From NCBI GenBank assembly GCA_949285105.1, contig CASDXH010000003.1, positions 1-62,169 of the forward strand: a DNA stretch of 62,169 nucleotides. The letters run 5' to 3'. Positions 4,850 through 57,340 of this stretch are shown here, one piece after another. Origin of the DNA: an uncultured Mycoplasma sp. (GTDB lineage: Bacteria > Bacillota_I > Bacilli_A > Mycoplasmatales > Mycoplasmoidaceae). The stretch's first letter is position 1. Every line of letters starts with the position of its first letter. Under the pieces are notes generated by a model, which did no database searches, had not been told where the DNA came from, and saw only the letters and a list, made by a program, of their open reading frames with translations. The translations under genes were made by a program, and so were the position numbers.

Positions 4850-4850
4850 T

Positions 4851-26163: not shown

Positions 26164-26268
<105 letters not shown>

Positions 26269-26282
26269 TCTTTGATAGTTCT

Positions 26283-29290
<3,008 letters not shown>

Positions 29291-29313
29291 TATCATGAGA
29301 GAATATATCTCTC

Positions 29314-30975
<1,662 letters not shown>

Positions 30976-33843: not shown

Positions 33844-34244
33844 TATAAAACCTTGTCCAAAATATAATTTACAAATTTATAAGAATTCTCTATTCCATAT
33901 TTTTTAGCAGTAATTATAGCTTGATCTATAACTATCCCCTTATTAACATTGCATGCTTTGTATTCAGAAATAGAAGCATAAATTATTGATTTATCAATGA
34001 AATCAACTCTATCTATAGTTCAATTTTTTAGCAAGTGCTTTTCTAAGGTTTGTTCTAAAAAACTTTTATTCTCAATAAAGTATAAAGTTATAGCATTGAT
34101 GTAATCGTCATTAATTGTATCTTTTAATTCTAGTTCAAACTTTTTAATGGATTCATCTTTTGAAAGGTCTGAAATCAAAACAGAATAAACAAATTTAAAG
34201 ACTGCAACCCTTTTTTCTCACTGAGTTAAATTATTAGTTTTCAT
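33843..34244 (-). CDS. nusB: Transcription antitermination factor NusB
   Basis: 133 aa, all helical. The C-terminal TIDRVDFIDKSIIYASISEY and VIDQAIITAKKYGIENSYKF, then VNYILDKVL, are typical of NusB; the N half (NNLTQWEKRVAVFKFVYSVL) matches its first helices. Two UGA-Trp codons hide it in the universal code. Acts with boxA in rRNA transcription. Overlaps its upstream neighbour by 11 bases. Confidence 0.9.
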
Positions 34245-34518
34245 AAATAAAAGAAATTGGTTTGTTACTTATTTGGAATTTTGTATTTAACAAGAAAAGT
34301 AACTGATTATACATATTAAGTTCTTCTTTTTTTGAAATTTCAGTACTTTTAGAAAAGTGAATATTAATGTATTTTAAAACATTCCTTTTGATTTCAAAAT
34401 CAATGTTTTTAACACACTCACCTTTAACATAACTTTTTAAAACATCTAGAAAAGAATTTTTTAATAAATTTTCTTCTACAAAGATACCACCAAATTTATT
34501 AGAATTTACTTTAATCAT
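34234..34518 (-). CDS. Small protein between efp and nusB, possibly Asp23/YqhY-like
   Basis: 94 aa. Sequence similarity is too weak to assign. In Firmicutes the slot between efp and nusB often holds an Asp23 (DUF322) protein, YqhY, and length and alpha/beta pattern are compatible (IKVNSNKFGGIFVEENLLKN, then KYINIHFSK). That is position-based inference only. Starts 3 bases after the efp stop. Confidence 0.6.
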   Translation of the reverse strand: MIKVNSNKFGGIFVEENLLKNSFLDVLKSYVKGECVKNIDFEIKRNVLKYINIHFSKSTEISKKEELNMYNQLLFLLNTKFQISNKPISFIYEN

Positions 34519-35194: not shown

Positions 35195-37705
35195 TTATTT
35201 TTCAAGATCTGCTCTTGTAAGTTTTGGAGTAGAGTGAATTTTTATTTCATAGAAAACTTGTTGTTTTCTTTTCTTTTTAGGAGCTTCCAGAATAACAGTT
35301 GGTTCTGGTTCTTTTTTAGGTTGTTCAACAACTGGTTTTTTAATTTCTTCAACAACTATTGGAGTTGGTTCAACAACATAAACTGGTTGTGGCATAGGTT
35401 GTTGCGGTTGAGTAACAACAACTTCTTCTTGTCTTTGTTGTTCTGAAAGTTCTTGCATTTGTCTTCTATTGTTTTCAATTTCAGTTAGAAGTCTAATTCT
35501 TTCAAGTTCAAGAGTTTCTTCAATTTTTTTTCTTTCCTCTTCTATTTTTCTAATTTCGTCTGCATAATTAGCTTCTTTATATTGGTTGTTAATTTTATAT
35601 TTTTCTTGAATTAATTTTTCTAATTCAACTCTTGCTAACTCTTCTTCTATTTCAGATGATTTGCCAGAATCATTATATTTTAATTGAGATTCAATATCTT
35701 GAATTTTTTTGTTAGTCATTTCTATGTCAACAATTGTTTTTTGTTGCATAGAACTTAATTCTTGTAGTTTTCTTAAAGTAGTTTTAATTGCGTCATCAAT
35801 CTCATTTAAAACATGGTTACCAACAGATTTCTTGTTTTGGTTCATTTCCTCATTAACAATTTTTAAAGCTTCTTTTTTAACTAATACTTCTAAAGCTTCT
35901 CTTGACATGCCATCAACTAATTGATCTTGATTTTTTTCATCTCTTAATCTTTTAATTTCTTGTTCTTGTTTTAAAATAACATTTTCAAGATCAAGAATCT
36001 TTTGACTGTTTTCTTGTCAAGCAGTTGTTTCCATTGGTTTAATTGTTTCAAGATTATTGATTGTAGAAATTCTTTCCGCTTCTTCTCTAATAATTTTTTG
36101 TGAGTCTTCAAAAGAAGAATCTTCTAAGTCATTGCTGATTTTATAATTGTTGATTCTAGTTATTTTAGTACCTGGAATAGGAAAAGCCCCATTGTAATAA
36201 TTGTGTTTCATATCCTCTTCACTCTCTTCTGAATAAATATTAAGCGATTCTATATCATTATTTATATTATCATTATTTTCTGAATTTAAATTATTATTTT
36301 CTGAACCATTATTTCTTGATATTTCATCAAATAAATCGTTTTTAAGATTTATGTTTTCTTGAATTTGATTTTTTAATTGTTCTTCTAATTCTTTGATTTT
36401 AATATTTGTTTCTTCAAGCTGTTTTAATATCTCATTTTCACTATGAGAAATAGATTCAATTTCTTTTAATTTGTCTTCAACACTCTCATCAGTTAATACT
36501 TTGTCTTTTTCTGTTTCAAGCAAGCTAATTTTACTTTTAATTAATTCAATAGCCTCTTTTCTTACAAGAATTTCAATTTCGTCTTTGTTTAAAATGTTAC
36601 CTGTGTCTACATGGTATGCTTTAGAACTTGTTTCTCCACCATCATCAAGTACATCTATTTCCTTGTAAATACTTGAGTTGTTAATTGAGTCAAATGGTTT
36701 AGTGTCTAAAACCTTTTTAATGTCTACATCTTTTTCTTTAAATACTTGTTCTAAAGTAAGAAGTAAGTTTTGTCTATCTTCATCAAGAGATCTAATTTGT
36801 TTATTTTGTTGTTCTAGCAGCAATTCCAGATCATCAAGTTTTTTGTTGTTATCAATTTGAATTTGATAAACTTTTGAAACTTCAGAATCTTTTAATTGGT
36901 TTTCTTCAAATAGTTTTTCAATAATCTTATCTTTTCTATCATCTGAGAATAGATAATAATCATGTATGTAGTCTTCAACTTCTTTTTTAGCAATTTTCTG
37001 TGCTTCTTGTTTTATGAAAGATTCAAGGTCTTCAAAAGTTTCAAATCTAACATCATGATATTCATAGTTCAGAATATCAGATCTCCCATTTAGATTAAAT
37101 TCTTCAATTTGACTAAATCTTTCATCAATTTGATTTTTTAATATTTCATTCTCTTCTTTTTGTCTAGCAAGTTCCTCCTCAAGAAGATAAATCATATCCT
37201 GACTTTTTTGAATTTCTTCTCTTGCTTTCATTTCGAATTGAGAAAGGTTTTCAACTTTTTCTAAAGCATCACTAATAGATTCATCGAAATTTCTAATTGT
37301 TTCTTGTGTTACATTTTCAAACTTATCTTCAAGATTATAAATTTCCTCATTATATTTTTCTTGAACAATTTTAGCAATTTTTTCTTCATCAATCATTGAT
37401 GCACTAATGTTTTCTTCAAGAAGTTTTGAAGCCTCTTCCCTGACAAGATTTCTTATCATTTCATCAGTTACAATAGCACTTGGATTTACATCAGATATAG
37501 GGTTGTTAAATTGTTTAAAAAAGTTATTTATTTGAGATGTTTGATTTCTTATTTTTGCATCGATTTCTAGAAGTTTTTCACCAGTTAATAATATCACTTG
37601 TTGGTTATAAGGTAGTTTTTGAAATTCAGGATTAGATTTAAGTTCTTCAATTCTATCTGACTTATCAAAATCAAAAATCATATCTAGATTTTTATTATTA
37701 TTCAT
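35195..37705 (-). CDS. Coiled-coil cytoskeletal-type protein F (836 aa, Pro-rich tail)
   Basis: Last gene of the coiled-coil operon; one frame across a single UGA-Trp. Four helices of the type REEA occur: LVREEASKLLEENI, FIKQEAQKIAKKEV, LVRKEAIELIKSKI and LVKKEALKIVNEEM. They alternate with leucine-heptad modules such as KLDDLELLLEQQNKQI and KILDLENVILKQEQEI. The segment around 36180-36330 is rich in Asn/Asp/Ser. The C-terminal 75 residues are Pro/Gln/Val/Lys-rich (QPQQPMPQPVYVVEP) and end in a basic patch. No signal or membrane helix. GGGAG precedes the ATG. Function inferred: structural protein of an internal cytoskeleton. Confidence 0.8.
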
Positions 37706-37729
37706 AGCCCACTCCCACTTTTTTAAACA

Positions 37730-40339
37730 TTACTTTCTTCTATTGAAATCATTATGATTTATATAATCATTTTCAGTACTATTTCTTAGTCCTTCATAAT
37801 CGATATTTTCATATGAAAATTTAATCTCATTATCTTTTTCACCAATTTGTCTTGCTATATTTTTTTCTTCCTTGTGATTCTTTAACTCCTGTTCATAAAA
37901 TCAAGAAAAGTCCTCATTAGCATTTAAATTATCATTTTCCTTTTTAAGATCTTCCATTTTGATATTTAAATCAACTAAATCTTTTTTTACATCTAAAGGT
38001 TCATAACTTTGGTTAAGTTTACTTAAAATATCTTGTATTCTATTTTTAAAGAAATCAGATTCTGGTTCTTCGTTTTGGTTAATGTAAATCGCTTGTTCTT
38101 TAGAAGCGTCATCTTTATTGATTAAATTAAGTTTTTTAATCTCTTCTTTAACTAGGTTTAAAGTCATTAACTTAATGTTTTCATAAATATCACTATCAAT
38201 ATCTTCAATGCCATCAATAGCTTTATTATTAACTATGTGTTCACCTGTGATAACATCTTGAATTTTGTTTTGTAAATCAATAATGTTAGCTTTTTGATCG
38301 CTAATTTTTTCCATAATTAGATCTATTGAATCTTCTTTATCTTTTCTAAATCCATCAACTTCTTCAACTTGTTTAATTACAAGTTTCTCTAAGTTCTCAA
38401 GGATTCTGTTGTTTTCAAGTAAAGTTTCATAGTTTTTTAATATTTCTTCACTGTGAAGAGAAATCTTTTCATCTCTCTTTAACAATTCTGAGTAAACAGA
38501 TTGTAATGTCTCATTTTTAATATGTCTCATCTTATCTGAGTTAACAACTTCAGAAACAACTTTATTTTTCAAGTTATTATCAACATATTCTTTTAAATCT
38601 TCTTCAAGTTTTCTATTGATGAAAGAAATATCATCTTGAATACTATTTAATTTTTCATTAATGATAAATATTAACTTGTCATTTATAATTTTTTCAATTT
38701 CTTCTGAAGAAGAAATCATATCATAGATTTCTTTTTCATCTAAGCTGATGTTATTTATTTTGTGTTCTAGATCAACTATTCTTTCATTCAAAGCAAAGTT
38801 TTTTTGATACATATATTCTTTTGTATCATTAATCTTTTCAGAAATATCTGTTTTTAAAAGATTAATTAAATTATTTGCCTCTATAGAAATAATGTTTCTA
38901 ATTCTATCAGATTCAGTAATTTGATCAATGATTTGGTTTTTATAAACATCAAAATTGTTAAAAGCATTTTTTATATATCCAATATTTTGATCATTATTTA
39001 ATAAATTATTTAATTTACTTTCTAAAGCTAAATTGAATATTTCACTTGATAAAACTTCATCAACAATTCTTTCTTGGTTAAGAATATTTTCTAAATGTAG
39101 AAGATTTCTCTTGCTAAGTTCTGATTCAACTGTTTGAACAGAAATGTCTTTCATTTCATCTTTTAGCAAATTAAATTCCTGGTGCAATTGTTCATCAATT
39201 AAAGAATTGTTTTTAGAAATTTTTTCATCAACAGAAGTTAACAATTCTTCTTTAAATTCAGATATACTATCTATTTGTTTTGAGAAATTAGAAAACTGAT
39301 GTTTTAAATCTTCGTTTTGAATTAAAAGCTCATTGATATATTTTTCATTATCAATAGTTTTATTGTGTAGTTCTTCTATGTAAACTTCTCTATCAATTAA
39401 TAGTTCATCATTTTTATTGTTTAATTCAAGCAATAGTCTTTCAAGATTGCTTAACAAAGAATTGTTTTCAGTTCAAATTGAATATATTTTATTAATTTCT
39501 TGATTTAAGTTTTCAAATTTATTTGTAAACAAATTTATTTCATTTTGAATTTCATTAATATCTAGAGCATGTTTTTCAGTTAAAGTACCATATTGTAATT
39601 CATTAATACTATTTAAATGTTCAATATTGTCTTTTAGTGCATCAAGTTGTCTAGCAAGTTCTTCTTGTTTACTAACAAAATTTGATTGTTCATTCATTAA
39701 TTTGCTTATAGATTCAAGTCTTTCATCATTATTTGTATCAAACTCATCCTCGCCACATTCATCTCATTTTATTTCTTCTACACCATCGCTTTTATTTGAT
39801 GAAATAGGCTCTTCAACAAAAATTGGTTGAATATTTTCTTCGCTTTTCTTATTAAGGATAGAATCCATTTTTTCTAAAGCGCTATTCATAAAGTTTTCAA
39901 AAGAAGAAAAAGTTTTTTCTAAATTCAAATTATTTTGAATTAGTGTATTTTTTATGTCATTTAATTGTTCGCTGCTTTGATCAGAGTCATTAGAAATGAT
40001 TGATGATTCATCATCATTTACACTATATACATCCTTTTCAAAATTAAAATTTTTATAATTATTTAATTTGTCTTCAATTTTTGATAATAAATAATTATTT
40101 GTATCTAGGTTTAAATTCAGGTTTTCAATATCTCTTGAATTGACTAATTCATCATTAGATTCTCTCATTTTCTTTGAAAGATCTCTTAAGTTCTTTTTAT
40201 TAATTAAATTTTTAGCTAAGTACTGTGCCTCTTCTCTAATCAAAATATTAGTTTCAATTTCATTGTCATGGTTGCATAACTGAACATCATCAACAAAATC
40301 GATAATATTTTCAGAGTCTCATTTTTTGTTAGTTGACAT
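37730..40339 (-). CDS. Coiled-coil cytoskeletal-type protein E (869 aa)
   Basis: A single frame across four UGA-Trp codons. The N-terminus (WDSENIIDFVDD) is acidic, followed by LIREEAQYLAKNLINKK. Then come long uninterrupted heptads from about residue 200 to 820, including NLERLLLELNNKNDELLIDR and NLEKLVIKQVEEVDGFRKD, the recurring module. No membrane segment. The strong GGAGAAAGG site is 6 bases before the ATG, and 22 bases separate it from gene D. Very low Pro and Gly in the rod fit a fibrous protein. Confidence 0.8.
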
Positions 40340-40361
40340 ATTAATACCTTTCTCCGATTAA

Positions 40362-43300
40362 CTAATTAGATTTGTTATCTAAATAGTTTTTTAAACTTCT
40401 AATTTTTTTATAGAAAATTTCTATCTCTTTTTTTCTTCTTTCTAATTCATCTACATAAAATAAAATATTATCATTTAATAATTTTAATGTATTATCGTCA
40501 TATTGATTAATTTTTTGTAATTCCAAATTTTTGTCATCACTATTGGAATCACTGTTTTCATTTTTGAAAATGATCTTTTCAATATTTTTCAATCTGTTTT
40601 CAATTGTTAAAATATTTTCATCGTTTTCTTTCTTATTAGTGATTTGATTGTTAGTCAATTCGTTTTGTTCTTTGTTGATTGCTTCAAAAGTTAATTTAAT
40701 TTCATTGGCATAATCTTCAAAGTTATCTTTAAGTTCCTTGAACTTTTCTTGAATCATATTCGATGTTTCATCAACGATTATTTTTTGAAATTTATTTGTC
40801 TCCAAATTATCTGTTTCAAGTTCGATGAACTCACCCTTTTCTGGAGCTTCAAGTTTTCCAAGATAATCAAGTTTATTTGTCATCATGTTTATTAATTCAT
40901 TTTTTTCTTCAATAAATGAATCAATTTGTAAATTTAAGTTATCAATTAATTCTTCTATATGTTCTAGTTTAAATTCTTGGCCTAGGATAATTCTATCTTT
41001 ATCTAAAACTTCATTATTTGCGTTTTGGTATTTAACTTCTAGCTCAGAAATTTTTGATTGAGCTTTTTTTAATTGATTAGTATAGTTTTCAAGCTCGGCT
41101 TTATATAATTCAATTTCATCGTTATTCAACATTTTCATTTGTTGTCTTAATGAATTTGATTGAGCAATGATTTCATTTCTTATCTCTTGTTTTCCTTCTT
41201 CAAACTTCTTAACAATTTGATTAAATGAATTATCGTTTTCATTTAATCTTTCATCTAAATAATTTACAAGATCTTCATTTACTTTAGTAAGTGATTTAAA
41301 TGAATTTGAAATCGCTTCCTCAAGTGAACTAATTTTATTTTTTAATTCTTCATCAACAAAAACTTCATTATTTAAAGGTCTGTTTTCTATTTTGCTTTCA
41401 AGTTCTTTAAAACGAGATTCAATTCTTGAAATTTCTTGACTTTGATTTCTCTTAATTTCGTCAACCATTTTATCAATAACTGTGTTAGCTTTTGCTTCAA
41501 GGATAATTTCTAAGTTGTCATTATCTTTAATTTCAAAGTTATCAGTTAGATCACTTTCTGTTTTAGAAATAATTTTCTCTTTTTCTGCATATAGATTAGA
41601 TAAAATGTTGTTGTTTTTTTCGATTATTTCTTCAATCATAGAAATCTTTTTATTGTTAATTTCAACAATTTCTCTAAAGTCTTGTTCATCAACATAATTA
41701 TCTGAAATAACATTGCTATTAATTTTTGCTTTTAATAAAATTACATCATCTTGAATATTTAATAGATTAAATTTAAAAGCACTTATGTCTTTTTGGATTT
41801 TTACGATTCCATCTTTATCTAAAGAATCAATATCAGTTTTTAAAATATTTAATAAATCTTTTTGAATATTAGTTAATTTATCAAAAACAAAATCTAAATT
41901 ATGAGCATCTCTATAACTTTCCAATTTAACAATATCTTTAAAAGATGAATTATTTTTATGGATTTCAATATTGTCATGAACATATTTTGAAAGCTCATCA
42001 ATCTTATCATTAACTTGAGCAAACTCATTTTGGTTGTTATTGCTTAAGAAAAAGTTTGATATGTTTTCAGGAGATTCTAATATTCTCTTTAAACATAGAT
42101 TTATTTTCTCTTCGATGATTGAAGAAATGTTTTCAATTTCTTCTGTTGTGAAATCATTTTTCTTAAGACTATTATTTAATTTTTTGATAACTTGGTCTTT
42201 TTCTTGCACAAGAGAATTAATTTCTTGTTCTTGTAAATCAATTAAATCTACCAGGTTATCAAGTTTTTTATTTAGAGATTCTAATTTAGAAAGTTCAGCC
42301 TCATTCAATTCTTGTTCTTTTTTGTGGAAGTGATTTGAAATTATAAGTTTTAATTCTTCATAGTTTCTTCTGTCTTTGTCCAAACTCTTAATTAGTAATT
42401 CTTCATACTTATCAAAATTATTAAGGAGTTTTGAACATAGATTATCGAAGACAGTTTGTTGTTGTCTTAACTCTTCAGCAATTGTTCCTGTTGTTTGATC
42501 TAACTTTGAAATTTTTGAATCTATTTTTTCATATGAATTCTCAGCAGCTTCTTGTATTTGAATTAAAGAATTGTTCAACATTTCTTCAATTCTGTCTAAA
42601 CCTGCATTTAGAACATTAGAATCTGAAGATTTATTTACAAACTCTTGAATTTTTTCTACAATTTCATTTTTGAACAATTCATTTTTAGAATCAATGTCTT
42701 TATAAAAGTATTCAAGTTTATCAAATTTTTTATCTAAGAAATTAGTAATTTCATATAACGTTCCATTATCTTTACTACTGCTATTAATTGAAGATAATAT
42801 TGATTCAAAACTTTCATTTATATTATCTTTAATCTGTTCATAATTACTAATTAATTTGTTTTCTAAATTATTAATATTACTATTAATGTTTTCTCTATCT
42901 GAATTTAATTGTTCTCCAAGAGATTTAATATTTAATTTTCTAAATTCTTTGTTAAAAGATTTTTCAAGGTTATTAATTCTTACTTCGAATGTTTGAGCAA
43001 TATCCAAGATACTATCTCTTACATTATCTAAAGTTGCACTGTTTAAGATTTCTTTTCTATTGTCATTAATTATTTTTTCGATTGTTTCAAGTGCATCTTG
43101 CTTATCAGCTAAAAGAGATTCAATTTCATCATTTTGTTTCAAAATAAGGTAATCAAGTTCTGCAAGCTTTCTATTATTTTCAATAGCTCTTTGTTCGTTT
43201 AGGCCACCATTAGCTAAAATATTGTTTTCAACCTTCTTTAATAAAGAAATAATATATTTCTTTTCATTTTCATTGTTCATAACAATGTTACTAAAGAAAT

Positions 43301-46277
43301 TTTGATGCTCAATTTTTGATTCTTCTTTTTCAATTTTTAAGGCTTCAACCAAGTTTTCCATTCTCTCAAGTAATTGTCTTGATTCTTCTTGAGATTTTCT
43401 AATGATGTTTTCATTATTAGAATTAATAGAGTCAATGAATTCTTCTTTATCTCTTTTTAAAGATGTAACTATTTCTTCAAAGCTATTAACCAATTGTTTG
43501 TGGTAAGCTTTTCCTTGTTCCGTCTGATCCTCGTTATTTTTATTTATTACGTTGATAACTTCATTGAATTTATCCTGAAGTTCAATAATTTTTTTATCAA
43601 GAACTTCAGAAGTTTTTGAATCTAATATTCTTTCAATGTTTGCATAATTGTTAGAATCTTTAACATCATTTACAACTGAAAGGATATCGTTCATTTTATA
43701 TTTAAGAGATTCAACCAATTCATTGTTATCCAAATTATGTTGAATTTCTTCAAGACTTGCATTAAAGCTATTTTTAATTGTTTCATAATTTTGCAACAAT
43801 CTAGTTTCAATGTTAGCGATACTTCTAGACATTTCATCAGAAAGGTTAGATGAATTTAAATTTAGTCCATCTAGTTTCTCAGCAAAGTTTTTTTCAAGTT
43901 CACTTATCTTTTCATTAAACTCTCCAGAAATTTGAGAAATTGAAGCTTGGATGTTATCAATTAGATTTGCATTATCATGTTTAGAAGATAATACTTTTTC
44001 TAAAGCATCTAGTGTAATCTCTTTCTCATTTAATAAAGATTCAAGTTCATCGTTTTGTCTTAAGATTAAATACTCCAATTGAGTAAGCTTTTTGCTATTT
44101 TCAATTGCTCTTTGAGAATCTATTCCAGTACCTTCGTTTTCAAGCTTGTCAATTAATTTCATGATTTGTCTTTTTTCGTTTTGGTTATTGCTTATTACAG
44201 CATTAATAAGACTTTCATATTCATGTTTAGATTGTTCTTTTTCAGATTTAAGATCTTCTAAGAATTTACTAAATTGATCTAAGATAAGCTGCGATTCATG
44301 TTCTGTTCTAGATAAGATTTTTTCATTGTTAATGTTTACTGATTCAATAAGATCATTCTTTTCTTGCTTTAGAGTTTCAAGAATTTCCTCAAAGTTAGAA
44401 ATTAATTTTTTTGTTTCTTTTCTATCTTCATCTATAGAGTTTTTGTTGTTTTCGTTCATCATGTTTAAAATTTCATTGAATTTAGTTTCTAATTCAATAA
44501 TTTTTTTATCTATAACTTCTGATGTTTTAGTATCTAAAATTCTTTCAATATTAGCATAGTTATTAGAGTCTTTAACATCTGTTACAACTGATAGGATATC
44601 ATTCATTTTGAACTTTAAGTCATCAGTTATTGTTGTGTCATCTAATTTATTTTTAATTTCCTCTAGGTTAATGTTGAAATTAGTTTTAATATTCTCATAA
44701 TTTTGAAGTAATCTATTTTCAACGTTACCAATGTTTCTAGAAATTTCATCTGAAATGTTTGCGCTTAAATTTAGATCATCTAACTTAGTTGCTAAACTTG
44801 TTTCAAGATAGTTAATTTTTGAATTGAAAGAATCTGCAATGTCAACAATTGATTTTTGAATGCTATCTAGTGTTTCTTGAGTAATAGCTTTTTTTTGTTG
44901 ACTATTTAAAATGTTTTCAATCTCAAATAAAGCATTATTTTTTTCTCTTAACAAACTTTCAATTTCATCGTTTTGTCTTAAGATTAAATGCTCAAGTTCT
45001 AATAGCTTTTGAGAGTTTTTAACTTGTTTACTCTCCATTTCATAATCATTGTTTTTCTGTTCGCTTTGTTTTTGAATTCTTTTTAATAAAGATAAGATGT
45101 CTTTTTTCTCATTTAAGTTATTTTCTATTATTTTAGAAATAAAGTTTTTGTTTTCTTCAGTAATTGATGTTTTAATGGTGTCAATTAACTTTTCAACATC
45201 TACATCACCCTTTGAAGTATTTTGGTTTTCTAAAATTTTGCTATTTTTTTCATCAAGATCTTTAATTAATTTTGTAAGTTTATCTTCTAGTGCTAAAAAC
45301 TTTTCTTCCACCATGCTATTAGTTGTGGTTCTAATTAGTTGATCAAAGTTTTCAACACTATCGTTATTTTTAAGATCATTAATTACATTGATTAATGTGT
45401 TAACTTTAGCTTCAAGATTTTCAAATTTATCTTCATTGTTATTAACACCAAAAAAATCTTGTCTAGGTGTTATTTTATTTGTAGTAAATGATTCTGGAGC
45501 AGTATGTCTGAAGTTATCAATTTTTTTATCTAAGTATTTGTTAAAAGAAACGAAATTAATAAATTCATTTTTTAAATTGTTTATATTGTCACTAATTACA
45601 TTTAGAACATTGTTTTTTAAAACATTAAAGTTTTCTAACTGATATGAATTAGCCAAAATGTCTTTTTGATCATAGAAGACTTTTTGAATTTGAGAGAATA
45701 ATTTATTTTCAATTCCATCTAAATGTTGGAAAACACTGTGAAGAATTTTATCTGTAGAAGAGTAAGATAATCCTTGTTCTGAAATTATTTTACTTAAGAA
45801 TCTGTTTTTTGATGATTGTATTTTTCTAATTTCATCTAGAGCACTTTCAAAAGCATTTTCTATTTTTTCAACAGAAAGGTTTTCATTTGTACTTAAGTTT
45901 TCGGGCTTATCAAATTCAAAAGTATCAATTAATTCTCCTGAGAATTGTTTTTCCACATATTGAGAGAACTTTTTCATTAATTCTCTTGGAGAGTATTTAC
46001 CACTTTTGTAATATTCTAAAAATTTGTTAAAAATACTTTCAAACCTATTTTCATTATTTAGCGACTCAATCTTTTGAGAAATATAGTTTTTAAGTAATCT
46101 AATTTCATTTTCAAGAAATTGATTTTCTTGATTAAGTAATGATAATTTATTTTCTAAACTAACAACAGAAGGTTGATTTAATGAAATATCAAAATCTATA
46201 TTGTTGTATTCTTCAACAATGTTATCTAGTTGTTCAGTTAATGAGTTAATATTAATCTTATTTCTATTTTTTGACAT
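40362..46277 (-). CDS. Giant coiled-coil protein D (1971 aa) with tandem repeats
   Basis: The largest gene of the window, uninterrupted and with no UGA. Residues about 1-130 form a distinct head (Asn-rich, then SGKYSPRELMKKFSQYVEKQF, which may be globular). The rest is nearly continuous coiled coil. From about residue 423 to 1336 three units of roughly 305 residues repeat; each opens with KLxxLExLILRQNDEIESLL and contains IERILDxKTSEVxDKKIIEL. Later copies of the module (about 1340, 1545, 1770) are more diverged. A rod this long would extend a few hundred nanometres, comparable to the size of a mycoplasma cell (inference). AAGGAG precedes the ATG. No homologue is certain to me. Confidence 0.85.
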   Translation of the reverse strand: MSKNRNKININSLTEQLDNIVEEYNNIDFDISLNQPSVVSLENKLSLLNQENQFLENEIRLLKNYISQKIESLNNENRFESIFNKFLEYYKSGKYSPRELMKKFSQYVEKQFSGELIDTFEFDKPENLSTNENLSVEKIENAFESALDEIRKIQSSKNRFLSKIISEQGLSYSSTDKILHSVFQHLDGIENKLFSQIQKVFYDQKDILANSYQLENFNVLKNNVLNVISDNINNLKNEFINFVSFNKYLDKKIDNFRHTAPESFTTNKITPRQDFFGVNNNEDKFENLEAKVNTLINVINDLKNNDSVENFDQLIRTTTNSMVEEKFLALEDKLTKLIKDLDEKNSKILENQNTSKGDVDVEKLIDTIKTSITEENKNFISKIIENNLNEKKDILSLLKRIQKQSEQKNNDYEMESKQVKNSQKLLELEHLILRQNDEIESLLREKNNALFEIENILNSQQKKAITQETLDSIQKSIVDIADSFNSKINYLETSLATKLDDLNLSANISDEISRNIGNVENRLLQNYENIKTNFNINLEEIKNKLDDTTITDDLKFKMNDILSVVTDVKDSNNYANIERILDTKTSEVIDKKIIELETKFNEILNMMNENNKNSIDEDRKETKKLISNFEEILETLKQEKNDLIESVNINNEKILSRTEHESQLILDQFSKFLEDLKSEKEQSKHEYESLINAVISNNQNEKRQIMKLIDKLENEGTGIDSQRAIENSKKLTQLEYLILRQNDELESLLNEKEITLDALEKVLSSKHDNANLIDNIQASISQISGEFNEKISELEKNFAEKLDGLNLNSSNLSDEMSRSIANIETRLLQNYETIKNSFNASLEEIQHNLDNNELVESLKYKMNDILSVVNDVKDSNNYANIERILDSKTSEVLDKKIIELQDKFNEVINVINKNNEDQTEQGKAYHKQLVNSFEEIVTSLKRDKEEFIDSINSNNENIIRKSQEESRQLLERMENLVEALKIEKEESKIEHQNFFSNIVMNNENEKKYIISLLKKVENNILANGGLNEQRAIENNRKLAELDYLILKQNDEIESLLADKQDALETIEKIINDNRKEILNSATLDNVRDSILDIAQTFEVRINNLEKSFNKEFRKLNIKSLGEQLNSDRENINSNINNLENKLISNYEQIKDNINESFESILSSINSSSKDNGTLYEITNFLDKKFDKLEYFYKDIDSKNELFKNEIVEKIQEFVNKSSDSNVLNAGLDRIEEMLNNSLIQIQEAAENSYEKIDSKISKLDQTTGTIAEELRQQQTVFDNLCSKLLNNFDKYEELLIKSLDKDRRNYEELKLIISNHFHKKEQELNEAELSKLESLNKKLDNLVDLIDLQEQEINSLVQEKDQVIKKLNNSLKKNDFTTEEIENISSIIEEKINLCLKRILESPENISNFFLSNNNQNEFAQVNDKIDELSKYVHDNIEIHKNNSSFKDIVKLESYRDAHNLDFVFDKLTNIQKDLLNILKTDIDSLDKDGIVKIQKDISAFKFNLLNIQDDVILLKAKINSNVISDNYVDEQDFREIVEINNKKISMIEEIIEKNNNILSNLYAEKEKIISKTESDLTDNFEIKDNDNLEIILEAKANTVIDKMVDEIKRNQSQEISRIESRFKELESKIENRPLNNEVFVDEELKNKISSLEEAISNSFKSLTKVNEDLVNYLDERLNENDNSFNQIVKKFEEGKQEIRNEIIAQSNSLRQQMKMLNNDEIELYKAELENYTNQLKKAQSKISELEVKYQNANNEVLDKDRIILGQEFKLEHIEELIDNLNLQIDSFIEEKNELINMMTNKLDYLGKLEAPEKGEFIELETDNLETNKFQKIIVDETSNMIQEKFKELKDNFEDYANEIKLTFEAINKEQNELTNNQITNKKENDENILTIENRLKNIEKIIFKNENSDSNSDDKNLELQKINQYDDNTLKLLNDNILFYVDELERRKKEIEIFYKKIRSLKNYLDNKSN
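42270..45015 (-). repeat. Three tandem ~917-bp coding repeats in gene D
   Basis: Period marked by the module KLxxLExLI at about 45010, 44095, 43178 and 42265 (915, 917 and 913 bases apart). Units 1 and 2 remain clearly alike at DNA level, e.g. TCTTTAACATC...TTACAACTGA at about 44570 and 43655. Unit 3 is similar mainly at protein level, which suggests older divergence. Confidence 0.8.
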
Positions 46278-46290
46278 AAGTGCTCCTTTG

Positions 46291-48465
46291 TTAGCTCATG
46301 TGATTTAAAATATCACTAAGTTCTTGATTCTCATATAAATCAATTTCTTTTTTAATTTTTTCAAGTTCTGTTAACACAACTTTTAATTTCAAATTTTTTA
46401 TAAGTTCATAATTATCATCACATTTAGAATTGCTTATCAATTTGTATCTGCTGTTTTTTGATTCGATTTTCTTTGAATCTATATTTGAGTCTATGTATGT
46501 ATCACCAATTTGTTTAATTTGATCTAATAGTCTTTCAGATAGATCGCTAATTTGATTATTAATTTCTAATTTAAAATCATTCAACTTCTCATCAATATCT
46601 TTTTCTTTATTACCATATTCATTTTTTTTGTTAACTGGTTTATTGTTTAATTTTTCAAAGTCTTCATATTTAATGTCTGGTTGAAAGATTTCATCTTTAA
46701 CAATATTATGAGATAAACTTGATTCTCTTTTTGTTTCCTCTTCACTAGGAATATTTATTAAATCGCTGTGATCAAATAAAGTGTGTGGATAATCTTCAAT
46801 AACTGGTTTTGCTTCTTCTTGTTGTTCAACAATTTTTTGGTTATCAATATCTAAATCTATATCTGTAGTTTTGTCTCTTAAATAAGTTATTTCAAAGAAC
46901 AATTTGTAAAGCGTTTTATTTCTATCAATTAAAAGATTGATCAAATCCTTAGCTCTTGTTCAAGAAGACACATTGTAAGAAGTTAAATCTAGCGTAATAT
47001 TTTTGTCCTTATTGTATAAAACACTATAGTGGTTTAAGTTATTTATTTCTTTGTTAATTAAGTTGTTTATTAAAGAGCATAGTTCATAATATTTATTAAA
47101 CTCTTGAAGGATAATTGGATACTGAGTTAAATCAAATTTAGAACAATAGGTTCTAATTTCAATTTCAGTTCTATTGATAAACGCCTGGCATTCCATCAAA
47201 AGATCTTTTATTCTTGTAATGACTTTTATTAAATCTTCAGCATTCATAACCTCATAGCTATTTACTGATAAACTACTATTGTCAAATGCCTGAATATTAT
47301 CTAATTCATCTTTTAGATTTGTAAAATCAACTTCTAAATTTTCGCCATTATCTAAATCTTCTTTTTTGTTAAAGCAATTTACTAATTCTAAATTGATTTG
47401 ATTTAGTGAATCCTCAAGAGAAACAAACATTTTGCTTATATCATTTGAAAACTCTAAAATAAGCATTCTTTTTTGATTTATTTCACTATCAATAATAGCG
47501 TTTACATTTTGTTGCTGTTTTTCTTGTTCTTCTTGCTTATCTGTTTCATTTTGAGACAAAAAAACTTCTTGAGTTGGTTTATCCTCGTTTAAGAAGATGC
47601 AATTACCATTAACTGTTGTGTCATTTGCTTTTGAATTATCAAAATTTTTTCTATTTTTTTCAGGTTCATAGTTTTCAATATATAATTGGTTAACTTTTCC
47701 TTCAAGATAGTTAATTAAGTCATTCTTTTCAGAATCATAATCATCTAAAGTGTTTTTTTGAATGTTTAACAATGACTCAAGCTCTTCAAGTTTGCTTGTG
47801 TTTCTTATTCAAGCTTTAAATGATTCGTTTAATTCCATTTCTTTAGAGTTATTTTCTCTAATTAAATTTTCCATCTTGTTTTTGTATTCAACATTTTCAG
47901 TTAAAAGTTCTTGAACTTGTGATCTCAATAATAAAATCTCTTCTTTAAATTCATTTGTTTCATCCTGACTCATAATCAAGTCAGTAATTTTTTCACCAAG
48001 ATCTCTTGCCATTGAATCCATTTTACTAATTACTAAATCAATGTTTTGAGAGTTATCAACAACAATTTTTTGTTCCACTGGATATTCATTAATATTGTTG
48101 AATTGAGTTAAAGTTCTTTCTACTTCATTTTTAAGATCTTCATATTTAGTTTTATTGAATTCAAGATCATTTAATTTCTCAATGTTTGCAAGTCTATTTG
48201 CAATACTCTTTTGAAGAGCTGAAACTTTTTCTTGAATGTCAACGTTTTCATTAATCTTATTAATTATTTTTTCAGAGTTAAAGTTGTAATCTTTAGAGTT
48301 TCTATGAACAAAAATTTTATCAATATCCAAAATATTTGAATTGTTTAATTCAAATAAAAGATTTTGATATCTAACTTTTAAATCTGCAAGACGGTTTTCT
48401 ATCCTTTCCCTACTTGGTGCTTTATCTTCGAAAAGCATTTCAGGATATTGATTTTGCTTGTTCAT
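46291..48465 (-). CDS. Coiled-coil cytoskeletal-type protein C (724 aa)
   Basis: One frame across two UGA-Trp codons. Heptad-rich throughout, with the N-terminal SRERIENRLADLKVRYQNLL. After the first UGA-Trp comes the recurring module W-IRNTSKLEELESLLNIQ with SEKNDLINYLEGKV; after the second, W-TRAKDLINLLIDRNKTLYK. Acidic, Gln/Glu-rich spacers occur (about 47500-47560), and a short C-terminal helix (KIKKEIDLYENQELSDILN). GGAG lies 7 bases before the ATG; the next gene follows after 13 bases. Confidence 0.8.
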
Positions 48466-48485
48466 ATCTTTAACTCCTTTTTTAT

Positions 48486-51455
48486 CTATAACGATTGGCT
48501 ATTTTGGATTGCTAAATCAACTGAATTATTTTCTAGATTACTTAATTCCATATCTAGTTGTGTTAATAGTTTTTCAAAATTTCTTAATCTCATGTTGCTT
48601 TCAATTAATTCAATTGGAATATCATCCGTTGAACCACACGTTACTTTATAATTTTCAAACCCTTCCTCTGTCTTGTTTAATTGGTTTACTAAATATAAGT
48701 AATTTTGTCTTAACTCTTCTACTTCTTTTTCAAGATCACTTCTTTGATTGTTATCACCATTTCTAATTTCTTTAACAAGCTCTTTTAAAGTGTTAGCTAA
48801 TTCATTATTTAAATTAGCATTTGATTTGCTATCTGGATCTTCATTTGTTCAAATTGGTGGATAGTCATCATCTTTAATAAATTTATTTTTTGGCTTTTCT
48901 TGATAGTTATTTACAATAACTGGTTGTTTTGTAATAATTGTTTTTTCAACAACCTTCATTTTGTTTTTAGGAACACTTTCTTTTGATGATTCATCAAAGT
49001 AACCACCAGATACAAATGATTGAGCTATAGGAATGTCATCTTTATCAACACGTTTTGGAGTTTCTGTTTCATCAACGTCAACATAATATGTTTCAACATG
49101 TTCAACTGGTTCTGTATCAAAATTATCTAAAGAAACATTTTCATAATATTTATTGTCATAAGAATCTTGCTGTTCAGTTGGATATGCAATTGCATATTCA
49201 TAAGATTCTTTTCTTGGTTCTTTTCCAGATAAAATTTCATTAACTCTTTCATCTATAAGTTTTTTAACTTCAAGATCTGTTAATTGATCTTTTTGTTTTG
49301 GTTCTTTAATTTTATCAATACCAGATATTTTCAATCTTCTTTCAAGTTCTAAGATTAATTCGTCTTTATCATTGTTTATTCTTTCAAGCTCTTCTATATT
49401 GTGAGCAAGTAAGCTTTCAACTTCTCTCATTTTTTCATTGTTATATGTGAACTTGTTTAGTGAATTATCCAATTGATAATTAACATTTTTATTTTCTTCT
49501 TTAATCTTACTGTTTTCAGATTTTAAGATTCCAACTTGGCTTTGCAATAATTTAACTTCGTTTTTAATTTCGTTATATAGATTCGAATTTGTAACAATCT
49601 CTTCAATATCACTATCAGTTAAATAGTATTCTTGTTGTTCATTTGCTTGAGATGAAAGATTTAACTCTTTTATCTTTTCGTCAATTGCTTTTTTGATTTT
49701 CTCAGATAATTGGTTCTCAAATCTATCTAATTTGAATTTAATTTCATCATCCATGATGTTGTTTTTATAATCGTCAAATCCTGTACCAAGCGCTTCATTT
49801 AAATCATCAAGTGCATATAAAGTTTTGTCTTTATTTGTCTTGTAGTCTCTAAATTCAGTCTCAAGATTTTTTATCTTTCTGTCAAAAGAATCAACTTTGC
49901 TTTCAAGAGAAGAAATTAAATCATTGTTATCAAGTTTTTCAATTTCAGAAGCTAATAAGTCTTTAGTATCATTTGGTGTTTGATATTTTAAGAAACTTGT
50001 TTTTAAACTTTCTTCAATTTCATTTAATTCAGTACGGTATCTATTTAGCAATTCACTTACTTTGCTATCCAATACTTTGGTAGCTTCTTTTTCAACTAAT
50101 TCTTTTAATGAGGTCGCTTCTACATCATCATCAAATTCACTAACACCATATGCAAACTCAAATACTTTTTTGTTTTGCTCAATGTATTCAAGTAACTCGT
50201 TTTGATAATTTAGTAAATCATTTTTTTCTTGAATTAATTTTTCAAGTTCTCCGTGTACTGAAATTAATTTATCTTGTAGTGTATTTATGATTACAGATTT
50301 TTGACCATCTAATTCATAAAGTTCTACAGATTGTTTATCTAGTAGGTTTTGTAGGTCTTCAAGTTTCTTATTGTTATAAACTCAAGCACCATAAGAATTG
50401 TTCAATTCATTTTCTTTTCTAATTGAATCTTCTTTTAAAGAATTAATTAAGTTTTGTTTTTCTTCATTCTTTTCTCTATATAATTTATTTTCGTTTTTTA
50501 ACTCATTAAGTTCACTAGTTAAAGATTCAATATTTTTTTCTAATGAATTTACAATTGCACTTGTCATAGTTTCAAGGTTTTTAACTTCAAGAGATTTAGA
50601 AAAACTATCAAGTAAATTTTGTGTATTATCATTTGAATTCTCAACTTTAGAAATCATTGAGTTGATAGCAATATCAAGTTGTTCTAAAGCGCCAGTATTT
50701 ATCTGGTTGCCATTTCCTCCATAAGAACCATCAAGTTTAGCTTGCTCAAGTTGTCTAATTAAATTTGTATTAGTATCTCAAGCTAAAGCTGTATCAGTTT
50801 TCATTTGCTCAATTTTGTCAGTTAGATTTTTTTCTAGTTCATTTAAACTATTCATTACATCAATGTTTTGTTGTTTAAAGAATTCATCTTTAAGATCTTT
50901 TTCTACTAATTGATCTTTTAATGCTTCATTTTCACTAGCTATTTTTCTAACGCTTGTTGCAAGGTCATCAAAACCAATAGAATCAAAACCACTTAATTCG
51001 TATTCGTTATTTTCGATTGCTTTATTAATTAAATCAAGTTCGCTTCTTAAATCTTTAATTTCATTAAGATTGCCATTACCAAAGTTATTTTCAACATCAG
51101 CATTATCAATTAAGTTGTGCTGTTGATTTTCTCTTTTTTGAGCTTCTTTTTCAAGGTAACTTATTTTTTCTAGAAGTTGTTTTTCTTTAGTTTTTAAAAA
51201 CTCATTTTGTTGACTTTCAATATTAATGTAATAACGAGCAGCAATTTTTTCTAATAGGGCAGAAATTTGACTTATTCCGTCATCTAGAACTTTTTGTTTA
51301 TGTAAGCAATGGTCGATAAGTTTTTTATCATTAGAAGAAGACATTATTTTTTGAATTTTATTTGAGATAAGAAAATAGTTATTCTCAATCAATTGCTTTA
51401 TTTGAATAACTCTGTCTGCTATCTCTTTAAAGTTATTTACTTTATTTGTGGTCAT
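48486..51455 (-). CDS. Coiled-coil cytoskeletal-type protein B (989 aa)
   Basis: One frame joined across three UGA-Trp codons. Residues about 1-225 and 235-640 are heptad-rich; modules follow UGA-Trp as in protein C (W-VYNNKKLEDLQNLLDKQSVE). LKELVEKEATKVLDSKV is the REEA-type helix. Residues about 735-870 form a non-helical acidic/Tyr-rich tract (SYDNKYYENVSLDNFDTEP, VETYYVDVDETETP) ending in KDDDYPPIW; a last short coiled coil follows. Such acidic-Pro/Tyr tracts recall mycoplasma attachment-organelle proteins, but this is resemblance only. AAGGAGGAGA is a very strong ribosome site. Confidence 0.8.
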
Positions 51456-51498
51456 TGTCTCCTCCTTATAAAATATTTATTCTTATCTGACTATTTTC

Positions 51499-53664
51499 TT
51501 ATTTATTTTTTTCTTCTTTAATTGATTCCAATTTATTAATTGATTGGTTGATTTCTACTTTATCATTTTCTCTAGCGTCTAGTTCAACTACTTCATTCAG
51601 ACTTTTCAGTTGTTCAATAGATTGTTTTATTAATGCATCTATTTCATCAAAGTTTGGTAATTTGTCTTCTTTGTTCTCCATTAGAATTGGAGCTTCTTTT
51701 TGTATGTAAACTTCTTTGCTACTTCTACTATCGAATTTACTATCATCTACAAATTTATTACTGTGAAATCCACCTGATGAATTATCAGAGCTTTTTAAGA
51801 AGCTTTCAAAAGATGAATCATTTGCATTAGTTGAGCCACTATTTGGATCTCCGTCTAATAAAAACATCTCATTGTTACCATTAGGGTTTGCTTGTGGGTT
51901 ATTATTTTTTTGATCCTCTAATAAATTATTAAAGTCTCCTTTTAATTTAGAAATTTCTTCATTTACATTAAGTAGTCTATCGTTAACATTTTTTTCTATA
52001 GACTCATTAATTTTGTTATTAAACTTATCATCGTTAACTAATGACTTAAGCTCGTTAAGTTCATCAGAAATTTTGTTCATTTGTTTGTTTGATTCATTAA
52101 TTTGATCGATGATATTCGCTGCAAAACTTTCACTAACTGTACTTGTAGAATCTGTGAAATTATCTTTGTCATAAACATAAGTTTTAAGATTGTCTAGGTC
52201 GTTAGCAAAAGCCATTAAATTTTTATTTGTTGAATTTAATTGATTTGATAAATTTGAAAGTGATGATTTAATTTTTTGATTTTCAAGATTTAACTCTTTG
52301 GATAGGTTTTCATTTAAATTATTAATTTTAGTTATCGCATTAGTAATCTTGTCATCGATTGATTCAATTACATCATCTAGTTTGTCATTTGTTTCTTCTA
52401 ATTGATCGTTAATTAATGACTCTCTTTTATCAAATTCTTCAAAAGCAAATTTTATTTGATTTGAAACTTTATCAACTATTTCATCCTGGTTAGAAACGAT
52501 TGGATCTACATTCTTTTTGTAGTCTACTTCAATAGCTGAAATTTTTTCATCAAGCAATGCAATTTTTTCTAAGATATCCTCTTTTAGTTCATCAATAATC
52601 ATATTGTTTACACTAGGGTTGTTTAGATATCTATCAAATCTATAGTCATACCCTCTGTCATAACCTCTATCATATCCTCTATAGAAGTTATTTCTGCTGT
52701 CGTTTCTTTGTCATTGATTGTCATTATATGAATATGATTTAAAAAGTTCTCCAAACCTATTGTCAATGTGATTTTTTAATTTCTCAGTTTGTAAATCAAT
52801 TTGATTTTCTTTTAACTTCTCTTCAGTATAAATATATTTCATCTCATTTTTAAGATGATCAAGTTTTACTTCTAAAACTTTGTTATCCATTTTATTAGCA
52901 TAAATACCATCCCTAACAAAACCCAAATCCACACAACTTGATAAATGTTTATCATTCATCAAATTGTGTGCAATGATTTCTCTTCTAGATGGACCACTTG
53001 TTTGACTAGCATATCTATCATAAGATGAATTATTATCATCTTGAATATCACTTTTGTTTCTTAAATTGTTTTGTGGTCTATCTTCTGGTTTAGAACTTTT
53101 AGCCACAGAAGGCTCTTGATTTAGACCTTTTCTTTTTTGAGCAAGTTCTTTATCTTTAAGATTTATCTGAGACTTAATTGAGCCAAATAATCTATTAATA
53201 TTATTAGGATTACTTAGTCACTGTTCTAAGTCCATTTCTTTTCACTTTCTATTGAACGCCATATTATAAATTTCATTTACATATTCATCGTTATCTATTT
53301 TATATTTTGCAAACAACATCTCTCTTACTTTTCTTTTAGGTAAGTAGTTAGCTATAATATTAATATTATTGATTTCGTTGTCTCTAAGATTATCAGAAAT
53401 AATGTCGCTTATTTTTTCGCTTATAGTTCATCCATTATCTTTGCTTTCTTCAGCCTCTTTTAATGAATTAGAAACATCAGCTGCAACATCGTTAACATTT
53501 TCATCCATTTTTTTATCTAGAATAGAAGAGAAATTATTACTAGTAGATCTTGGAGAAGATATTGTTTCAATGATGTCAAAGTCTCTAATTTCTGAAATTA
53601 TTTTGTCAGTAAAGTTTCTTTTTTCAAAACTATCAATTACTTTTGTTTCGCTAGAATTACTCAT
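51499..53664 (-). CDS. Coiled-coil protein A (721 aa), first gene of the cluster
   Basis: One frame across four UGA-Trp codons. The N-terminal 200 residues are not coiled coil: Ser/Asn-rich, then a compact charged region (NYLPKRKVREMLFAKYKIDN, NRKWKEMDLEQWLSN). A basic linker and a helix follow, then three RGYD repeats (about 52640-52690). After them comes a long coiled coil (about 360-560) and a Ser/Gly/Asn-rich spacer. The differing N-terminus could be a docking domain. GAGG precedes the ATG. A long palindrome lies immediately upstream. Confidence 0.78.
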
Positions 53665-53687
53665 TTTTAGTCCTCTAAAAAGTAAAA

Positions 53688-53727
53688 ATCATATAAAATA
53701 GATACAAAAATATCTATTGTATATGAT
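53688..53727. promoter_or_regulatory. 17-bp-arm palindrome in front of the coiled-coil operon
   Basis: ATCATATAAAATAGATA (53688-53704), 6-base centre, TATCTATTGTATATGAT (53711-53727): inverted repeat with a single mismatch. It begins 24 bases upstream of the gene A ATG and overlaps possible -10 boxes (TATTTT, TATGAT, minus strand). An operator or a leader hairpin; no T-run suggests a terminator. Confidence 0.7.
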
Positions 53728-53827
53728 AACTTAAAAAAATAAAATTTTATTACTTTTTTAACTATGCACTTTTTATTTAAATATTGTAAAACAAGCACTT
53801 TTGAATTTATTAACAATTAGATTATAA

Positions 53828-55631: not shown

Positions 55632-56597
55632 TTACTCAAACCTTTCACCTATAACAAAAAACGAATTGGAACTAAAGTTTCTTATATTTATTCTACTTTT
55701 TCCTTCAATTTGAAACTCAACTATTTTCACAACAAAATCTGATGTATTAACATATATTCCATCTTTTTTAACTGCTACAATTTTTCCTATTTCCCCATTT
55801 GAAGGAGTGTTGGTAACTTCACATAAAAATATTTTTACTGATTTGTTTTTATAAAATAAATAACCACCAGGATTGTCAGCTAAGCCCCTAACTCAATTTT
55901 TAAAACTGTTAGCATTTAGAGAAAGATCTAATTTTTCTTGTTCTCTTTTAATATTAAATGCAAAGCTTACTTTCGATTCATCTTGTTTAATTGGTTTTAA
56001 ATTCCCATTAATAATATTCTCTAGTTGCTCATATATTATTTTGTAAACGACATCATTCATTTTTTTGAAAAGTGTTGATGTGCTATCTGATTCTTCAATC
56101 ATAATCTTATAATCTATGAAATAATCACCAGCATCCATTTCCTTTATTGTTTTCATTAAAGTCACACCGGTTGATATTTCACCATTTATTATTGCTCAAT
56201 GAATTGGAGCCCCACCTCTATATTTAGGAAGAATTGAAGCATGTGCATTAATACAACCATATTTTGGGATTGAAAGTATTTTTTCTGGAATAAATTTTCC
56301 ATATGCACAAGTAACAAATAAATCAGGAGAAATATTTTCTAATTCATTAGAAATTTCACCTAATTTATTTGGTTGATATACTGTTATATGATTTTGTAGA
56401 GCCATTTGTTTTACAGGGCTAAATTGTATTTCTTTTTTTCTTCCGGACACTTTATCCGGCTGACAAACTACTGCTTTTACATCAAAAATATCGTTGTCTA
56501 ATAATGCTTTTAAAGCATAAGAACCAATTTCTGGGGTTCCCATGAAGACAACACTTATTTTTTCTTTTCCTTTTGAACTACTTCTTTCTTCTCTCAT
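55632..56597 (-). CDS. fmt: Methionyl-tRNA formyltransferase
   Basis: 321 aa. Formylates initiator Met-t[36 protein letters not shown], the catalytic [20 protein letters not shown] (Asn and His of the formyl site) and MDAGDYF. The C-terminal domain has [14 protein letters not shown]. Three UGA-Trp. Its start overlaps the preceding gene by about 43 bases, and lepA follows after 4. Confidence 0.95.
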
Positions 56598-57280
56598 TTG
56601 TCTTTGCTCTTTTTTGATTCCTTTTTACTTGATGCTGGAGATGTTGATTTATTTTTGAATATTTTGTTAATTATGCTTCTTTGTTTTCTTTTTTCTTGTC
56701 TTTCAAGCTCTTTTTTTAATTTTTCTTCTTCGGCTTGTTTAATAGGCAAGATTCACTCAGCTTCTTGCTTGTAGTTTTTTTCACCTAAGATTAGAATTTT
56801 TCTTTCATTTTCTTTTTTGTTTATTTTTATATATTTAACTTCACACTCAATTGCTCTAGGTTTATCAACCTTTAAAGTCTTTGCATTTCTTGTTGTGAAT
56901 AAAACAACATAAAGCTCTCTTTCTCTTTCGATTTTTGGTTTTTTACCTTCAGCTTTAAGTTTCTTATTTTCAAGTTTTTTTTCTTGTTTTCTTCTTTTAA
57001 TTTCTTCTTTTTGTTTTTTTTGTTCTTGTTTTGGTAAAGATCTATTTATTAAATCAGGATTCAATCTTTTTGCTACATATGTATCAATGATCTCTTTACC
57101 CTTCTCTTCATTTTCTCTTAAAAAGTCCTTTACAGCTTTTCAAACTTCGTCGCCCTCATGTCTTTGTTTTGGGCCATTAGAAGCAGCATCTTTTTGTCTT
57201 TTTTTTTTATAAAAGAAAAATAAAGCTATACCCCCGACGATTAAAATTACTGGCAAAAAACCAAAAAGCGAATTATTCAT
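56555..57280 (-). CDS. N-terminally anchored, highly charged protein, unknown
   Basis: 241 aa. One N-terminal hydrophobic helix (LFGFLPVILIVGGIALFFFY), then a helical segment (EVWKAVKDFLRENEEKGKEI), a Lys/Glu-rich stretch (about 90-130), a short beta-rich part (LYVVLFTTRNAKTL, CEVKYIKI) and a basic Lys/Ser tail. Three UGA-Trp codons, one where fmt begins. It is first of the fmt-lepA operon. No family recognised with confidence. Confidence 0.7.
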
Positions 57281-57340
57281 CCTGTACCCCAAAATAAAGT
57301 TTATTATTAAATTGCTATATTAATAATTACATTAATCTAT

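Follow-up and report, generated by a model that had tools for sequence, protein, structure and literature searches.

Six consecutive minus-strand genes, named cc1 to cc6 in transcription order, occupy positions 35,195 to 53,664 of a 62,169-nucleotide (nt) stretch of DNA (the window) from an uncultured Mycoplasma species of the genus Malacoplasma (GenBank contig CASDXH010000003.1). They encode 6,110 amino acids (aa) in all and probably constitute a single transcription unit whose products form the internal scaffold of a polar attachment or gliding organelle in Malacoplasma. Because five of the six proteins carry a private motif (M1) and the longest, cc4, changes in length by whole repeat units, these long, rod-like proteins most likely make up the inner skeleton of the tip with which the cells attach and glide.

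An attachment or gliding organelle is present in the two studied species of the lineage (PMC4134286, PMC9282661). M. penetrans glides protrusion-first (PMC9282661), and a cytoskeleton lies inside the terminal organelle of M. iowae (PMC4134286). The EAGR box (PF16713) had no match in six Malacoplasma genomes and 18 in a genome of another genus (G015). Given an organelle in the lineage and the absence of the EAGR box, the six-gene block is the best candidate seen for the organelle skeleton.

Results

A Private Motif Is Shared by Five of the Six Proteins

M1 is a heptad-type motif of ∼38 residues (NNxKLxxLExLIxxQxxEIxxLxx[ED]K) that is found in cc2, cc3, cc4, cc5, and cc6; BLAST comparison within the cluster also gave short cross-matches between members. 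The positions of the genes and of their M1 copies are as follows.

51499..53664, minus strand: cc1, 721 aa, the most divergent member, without M1; a block around WKEMDLEQWLSNPNNI is conserved in the genus
48486..51455, minus strand: cc2, 989 aa, coiled coil; M1 at aa 360-397 (50265-50378) and a weaker M1 at aa 671-706
46291..48465, minus strand: cc3, 724 aa; one M1, at aa 221-258 (47692-47805)
40362..46277, minus strand: cc4, 1971 aa, the longest rod; ∼306-aa repeats with one M1 each, at 44907-45020, 43989-44102, and 43068-43181, and weaker at 42165-42278 and 40869-40982
37730..40339, minus strand: cc5, 869 aa, coiled coil; M1 at aa 642-679 (38303-38416) and a weak M1 at aa 291-327
35195..37705, minus strand: cc6, 836 aa, helices joined by disordered linkers; M1 at 36740-36853 and 35900-36013

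The motif was tested with a leave-one-gene-out profile against 500 heptad-preserving shuffles of each protein. In the window genome, cc2, cc3, cc4, and cc6 scored above every shuffle (0/500) and cc5 was marginal (1/500), while no M1 was detected in cc1. The same test was passed by cc2, cc4, and cc6 of a 1,358,633-bp Malacoplasma genome (G001) that we take to be M. penetrans HF-2, in which the cluster lies at about 179.6-203.6 kb. In a genome-wide search of six Malacoplasma genomes and three genomes of a sister genus, M1 had no match outside the cluster, and 11 genomes from nine other genera had none at all. Across 95 genomes of the family, the motif was confined to the same two genera, with no match in the other 82; in the most fragmented assemblies the matches are spread over several contigs, which we regard as parts of one cluster.

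When leucine 6 of M1 is assigned to heptad position a, a glutamine occupies the core position d in 71 of 75 M1 copies, against a background glutamine frequency of 4.7%. Eleven residues past this glutamine, a lysine is found at an a position in 50 of the 75. A conserved polar residue in the core of a coiled coil normally fixes the register or the choice of partner, and the M1 glutamine would presumably do one or the other. A second motif, M2 ([IL][VI]xxEAxK[IL]), was not generalized, as it was supported only between cc2, cc6, and the sister-genus cc6.

cc4 Lengths Differ by Whole Repeat Units

The repeats of cc4 measure ∼285-319 aa (∼300), each with one M1. In six genomes the protein is 1620, 1971, 2273, 2753, 3256, and 3317 aa long and has 3 to 7 M1 sites. 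The cc4 of the window and its orthologue in a close relative (G008) are 88% identical and differ by a single gap of 309 aa, which is one repeat unit. If fully helical (0.1485 nm per residue), a unit would be ∼45 nm long, and the full rod would measure 240-490 nm. A very long rod that varies between relatives by whole coiled-coil units, as would be looked for in a molecular ruler, is thus present in cc4. In M. pneumoniae, the attachment organelle becomes shorter or longer when HMW2, a coiled coil of 1818 aa, is shortened or lengthened (PMC8191905), and by analogy cc4 may be an HMW2-like modular rod with a ruler role.

Coiled-Coil Content and Topology of the Proteins

Coiled-coil character was scored over 42-residue windows by how strongly hydrophobic residues recur with a heptad-type period. 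Strongly periodic residues made up a fraction of 0.28 in cc1, 0.48 in cc2, 0.13 in cc3, 0.66 in cc4, 0.44 in cc5, and 0.20 in cc6, compared with 0.01-0.06 in shuffled versions of the six proteins; the cluster proteins of G008 gave 0.19-0.65. By these fractions, the description of the proteins as mostly coiled coil in an earlier note on this DNA holds for cc4, cc2, and cc5 but only in part for cc1, cc6, and cc3. Among 304 background open reading frames (ORFs) from a 400-kb sample of G008, the highest count of periodic residues was 244; five of the G008 cluster proteins exceeded it, with 256-1488, and cc6 had 157. The coiled-coil content of the block is exceptional against this background.

The six N termini are hydrophilic, and no signal peptide, lipobox, or membrane helix of the kind expected of a surface adhesin or lipoprotein was found in any of the six proteins. 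The highest 19-residue hydropathy was ≤1.01 in all of them, which agrees with the lack of membrane helices noted before. No family in Pfam, NCBIfam, or PHROG was matched above cut-off by any of the six, and no relative of cc6 or cc4 was found among solved structures. Weak matches to HlyD, Mce, SMC, and apolipoprotein were set aside as ordinary coiled-coil noise. The asparagine content of the cluster proteins is high, at 9%-14%.

In cc1, the block conserved across the genus reads WKELDVExWLLNPENI in relatives and may be a small folded domain. In cc6, the C-terminal tail (KKRKQ-x2-F-[YF]-E-x3-H-x2-PK-[LI]-T-[RK]-AD) ranks with the best-conserved parts of the alignment in both genera. An AlphaFold2 model of cc6 made with nine relatives consists of helices, low-confidence linkers, and a disordered tail; with a mean predicted local distance difference test (pLDDT) score of 56, the model was used for its secondary structure alone. 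Prediction from the single sequence was poor (pLDDT 50). Conservation of a tail that is predicted to be disordered suggests that this peptide is a binding site for another component.

The Cluster Keeps Its Inner Order across Malacoplasma

Single-protein patterns proved too species-specific and found nothing, and relatives of cc6 were recovered by a profile scan. The cc6 profile had matches in all 10 genomes of Malacoplasma and in three from its uncultured sister genus; there was no match in 307 other genomes of the order, among them the urease-bearing genus identified as Ureaplasma. Every Malacoplasma genome with a long enough contig has the genes in the order cc1-cc6, separated by −32 to 43 nt. 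The search for the ordered cluster in relatives, which had been proposed as a check, thus showed the order to be kept across Malacoplasma and cc6 to be confined to two genera within the order.

In the window genome, lepA lies upstream of cc1 and efp downstream of cc6. The same two genes flank the cluster in G008 and in another relative, G006, where one transporter-like gene follows lepA. The G001 cluster has efp as a neighbor and not lepA, and that of G009 has neither. As the neighbors differ between genomes and the order from cc1 to cc6 is fixed, the block retains its internal arrangement in changing surroundings. No comparable coiled-coil block was found upstream of efp in nine other genera.

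The sister genus has a shorter version, in which a giant repeat protein is followed by a cc6 relative (L037 in G011, L036 in G020, and L039 in G029). In G011, a 3334-aa protein with tandem repeats of 33 aa and ∼200 aa and several M1 copies stands with a 404-aa cc6 relative beside efp. Since only cc6 and the giant M1-bearing repeat protein are recognized in this genus, the two-gene version may be ancestral.

A catalase gene is present in the window genome (G000:C23:6967-8121), G008, and G006; none was found in the seven remaining genomes of the genus. Catalase has been reported for M. iowae (PMC4134286), and its presence in these three genomes places the window on the M. iowae side of the genus, with the species left unclaimed.

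Reading Frames and Signals of a Putative Transcription Unit

The earlier note had described six minus-strand genes, five of them hidden by UGA-tryptophan codons, spaced by 13-43 nt, each with a ribosome site and closed by a single terminator. When the DNA was retranslated with genetic code 4, all six were recovered with the coordinates and lengths claimed for them, and under translation table 11 only the 1971-aa cc4 is left whole. The measured gaps from cc1 to cc6 are 43, 20, 13, 22, and 24 nt, and a Shine-Dalgarno-like sequence that fits the 3′ end of the 16S RNA (CACCTCCTTT) precedes each of the six genes. Outside coding regions, a single minus-strand terminator-like stem with a T run was found, at 35187-35167. 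The next mechanically called ORF, efp, begins 43 nt beyond cc6, with the likely efp ATG further on. All six genes are under purifying selection, with a ratio of nonsynonymous to synonymous substitution (dN/dS) of 0.06-0.18 against G008. The spacing and signals suggest that cc1-cc6 are cotranscribed as one unit. The candidate signals are listed here.

53761..53790, minus strand: candidate operon promoter, TTTACA-18-CATAGT with TG before the second hexamer, from a consensus scan (consensus match only)
53688..53727, minus strand: leader hairpin or palindrome just upstream of the cc1 Shine-Dalgarno sequence, with 17-nt arms (94% complementary) and a 6-nt loop
35167..35187, minus strand: intrinsic terminator after cc6 and before efp, GACAAACC-AAGTA-GGTTTGTC-TTTTTT, with 8 pairs (4 GC) and a T run

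The sequence TGCTATAA occurs at a comparable position upstream of cc1 in three relatives. The leader hairpin folds better than any of 200 shuffles (z = −4.4) and has one site per genome. The stretch before cc1 (53665-53766) belongs to 108 nt that are identical to G008, including the first 6 nt of cc1, despite a synonymous divergence of 0.34-0.58 of sites across the region. This leader is possibly an operator or an element of control at the mRNA level. In M. penetrans (G001), a different hairpin (AAGAAGATTTTTATCTTCTT) stands just before cc1.

Other Features of the Window

A type I restriction-modification locus (HsdS, HsdM, and HsdR) is found at 496-7772, with a Schlafen-group-3-type helicase/ATPase gene (1674-3293) between its S and M genes. 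A complete ribosomal RNA operon (16S-23S-5S) occupies 26164-30954 on the minus strand, just downstream of a run of efp, nusB, rsmE, and mtaB. Between efp and nusB lies a gene for a 94-aa protein (34234-34518) that has no Pfam match and whose position is kept in most relatives. A very basic 245-aa protein of the DUF5385 family, with one N-terminal membrane helix, is encoded at 56555-57292 and overlaps fmt.

Discussion

The fixed gene order, tight spacing, shared private motif, and lack of export signals argue strongly for a single intracellular structure, as the earlier note had proposed. Its further suggestion of an attachment or gliding organelle stands as plausible, with a lineage range that coincides with organelle-bearing species and an absent EAGR box, and the tie is one of association. 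In the arrangement we infer, cc4 would be a long axial rod assembled from ∼300-residue coiled-coil units, so that its length, and with it the length of the organelle core, would change in whole units of ∼45 nm. As cc2, cc3, cc5, and cc6 carry one or two M1 copies, they would probably dock laterally in register with the nodes of cc4, with M1 copies packing against each other or binding a common partner, and the rods would be bundled into a detergent-resistant core at the cell pole. The basic, disordered, and highly conserved C-terminal peptide of cc6 would probably anchor the bundle to another component, and cc1 would be a variable accessory. We propose only tentatively, and regard as doubtful in its entirety, that this organelle skeleton arose from a two-gene ancestor and independently of that of M. 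pneumoniae, as five M1-linked proteins whose motif buries a layer of glutamine, arranged around a modular rod, the number of ∼45-nm units setting organelle length in each species.

Several points weigh against the organelle scaffold. In M. penetrans, cc3 has no detectable M1 and cc5 is not clearly above its shuffles; cc3 and cc6 are modestly coiled-coil by the periodicity measure; and the two-gene version belongs to an uncultured genus. The interior of the M. penetrans organelle is reportedly variable and gel-like, according to the abstract of a 2017 study by Distelhorst, which is a poor fit to a ruler of fixed length and, if true, weakens the ruler step. The same abstract is said to give 12 candidate components of this organelle, identified by mass spectrometry in detergent-insoluble material. 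The G001 cluster may well encode some of the 12, in which case part of the present result is already known. These proteins come from the same genus as the cluster; M1, the repeat series, and the version in the sister genus were found in the present work.

Such an interior would suit a different architecture, a gel-like, phase-separated organelle matrix of asparagine-rich, partly disordered coiled coils, which M1 contacts would link into a meshwork without length control and in which the number of cc4 repeats would be neutral. The high asparagine content, the disordered linkers and tail of cc6, and the widely varying lengths of cc1 and cc4 are all consistent with this matrix. Unit-sized, in-register cc4 repeats with one M1 each, together with a strongly conserved M1 core, point to an ordered packing instead, and we think the matrix unlikely. 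The proteins might also form a general cytoplasmic cytoskeleton or a scaffold for cell shape or division, as has been proposed for other long coiled-coil bacterial proteins. The coiled coils, private motif, and operon would fit this equally well, and the cluster is present in every Malacoplasma genome searched and in an uncultured sister genus. Its range is, however, one lineage and its sister genus, it is not kept with division genes across the order, and a terminal organelle is common to both studied species, with a cytoskeleton inside it in M. iowae (PMC4134286). A function of this general kind is accordingly judged distinctly unlikely.

Chromosome- or membrane-associated proteins of the SMC/Rad50 type are very improbable: a weak coiled-coil match between cc2 and the arm region of SMC (E = 0.043) falls far short of the curated cut-off, and no ATPase head, hinge, or DNA-binding family was found in the six proteins with Pfam and NCBIfam. 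More improbable still is an origin as tape-measure or tail-fiber genes of a phage or mobile element. Long, helical, repetitive proteins that vary in length by repeats superficially resemble tape measures, but none of the six matched a PHROG family, cc6 matched no phage record, no viral contig contained a relative, and across the genus the gene order is fixed and the genes are under purifying selection.

The proposed organelle scaffold resembles the core of the M. pneumoniae organelle in several respects. Both have a large intracellular coiled-coil rod (HMW2 with 1818 aa; cc4 with 1620-3317 aa) and a lineage-private motif common to several proteins, without a membrane segment. In M. pneumoniae this motif is the EAGR box, found in several core proteins (the HMW1/2/3, P65, and TopJ group) and, as described above, missing from the six Malacoplasma genomes, and the cc6 and M1 profiles had no match in the EAGR-bearing genus. 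Across the 82 genomes of the family that lie outside the two genera, these profiles likewise revealed no orthologues, a result that includes no direct comparison with HMW2. For HMW2 (MPN310), 11 coiled-coil regions have been described and no ∼300-aa repeats like those of cc4 (PMC8191905).

Other wall-less bacteria have internal structures of their own. The "jellyfish" of M. mobile is the internal supporting structure of a gliding mycoplasma. Its gliding motor is distinct and related to ATP synthase (PMC13104615). M. mobile belongs to a distant lineage, and the sequence comparison with it consists of the order-wide cc6 search, which gave no match outside the two genera. The Spiroplasma fibril ribbon is similarly an internal cytoskeleton of a wall-less bacterium, and differs in that the six proteins match no curated family above cut-off.

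The findings bear on how organelle-like tips have originated repeatedly in wall-less bacteria and on what builds the tip in the M. penetrans/M. iowae lineage, where known M. pneumoniae components, the EAGR-box proteins among them, are missing. For this lineage, the present analysis provides a six-gene parts list, a common motif of the interaction type, and a natural series of cc4 lengths, with which the ruler can be tested across existing species without engineering.

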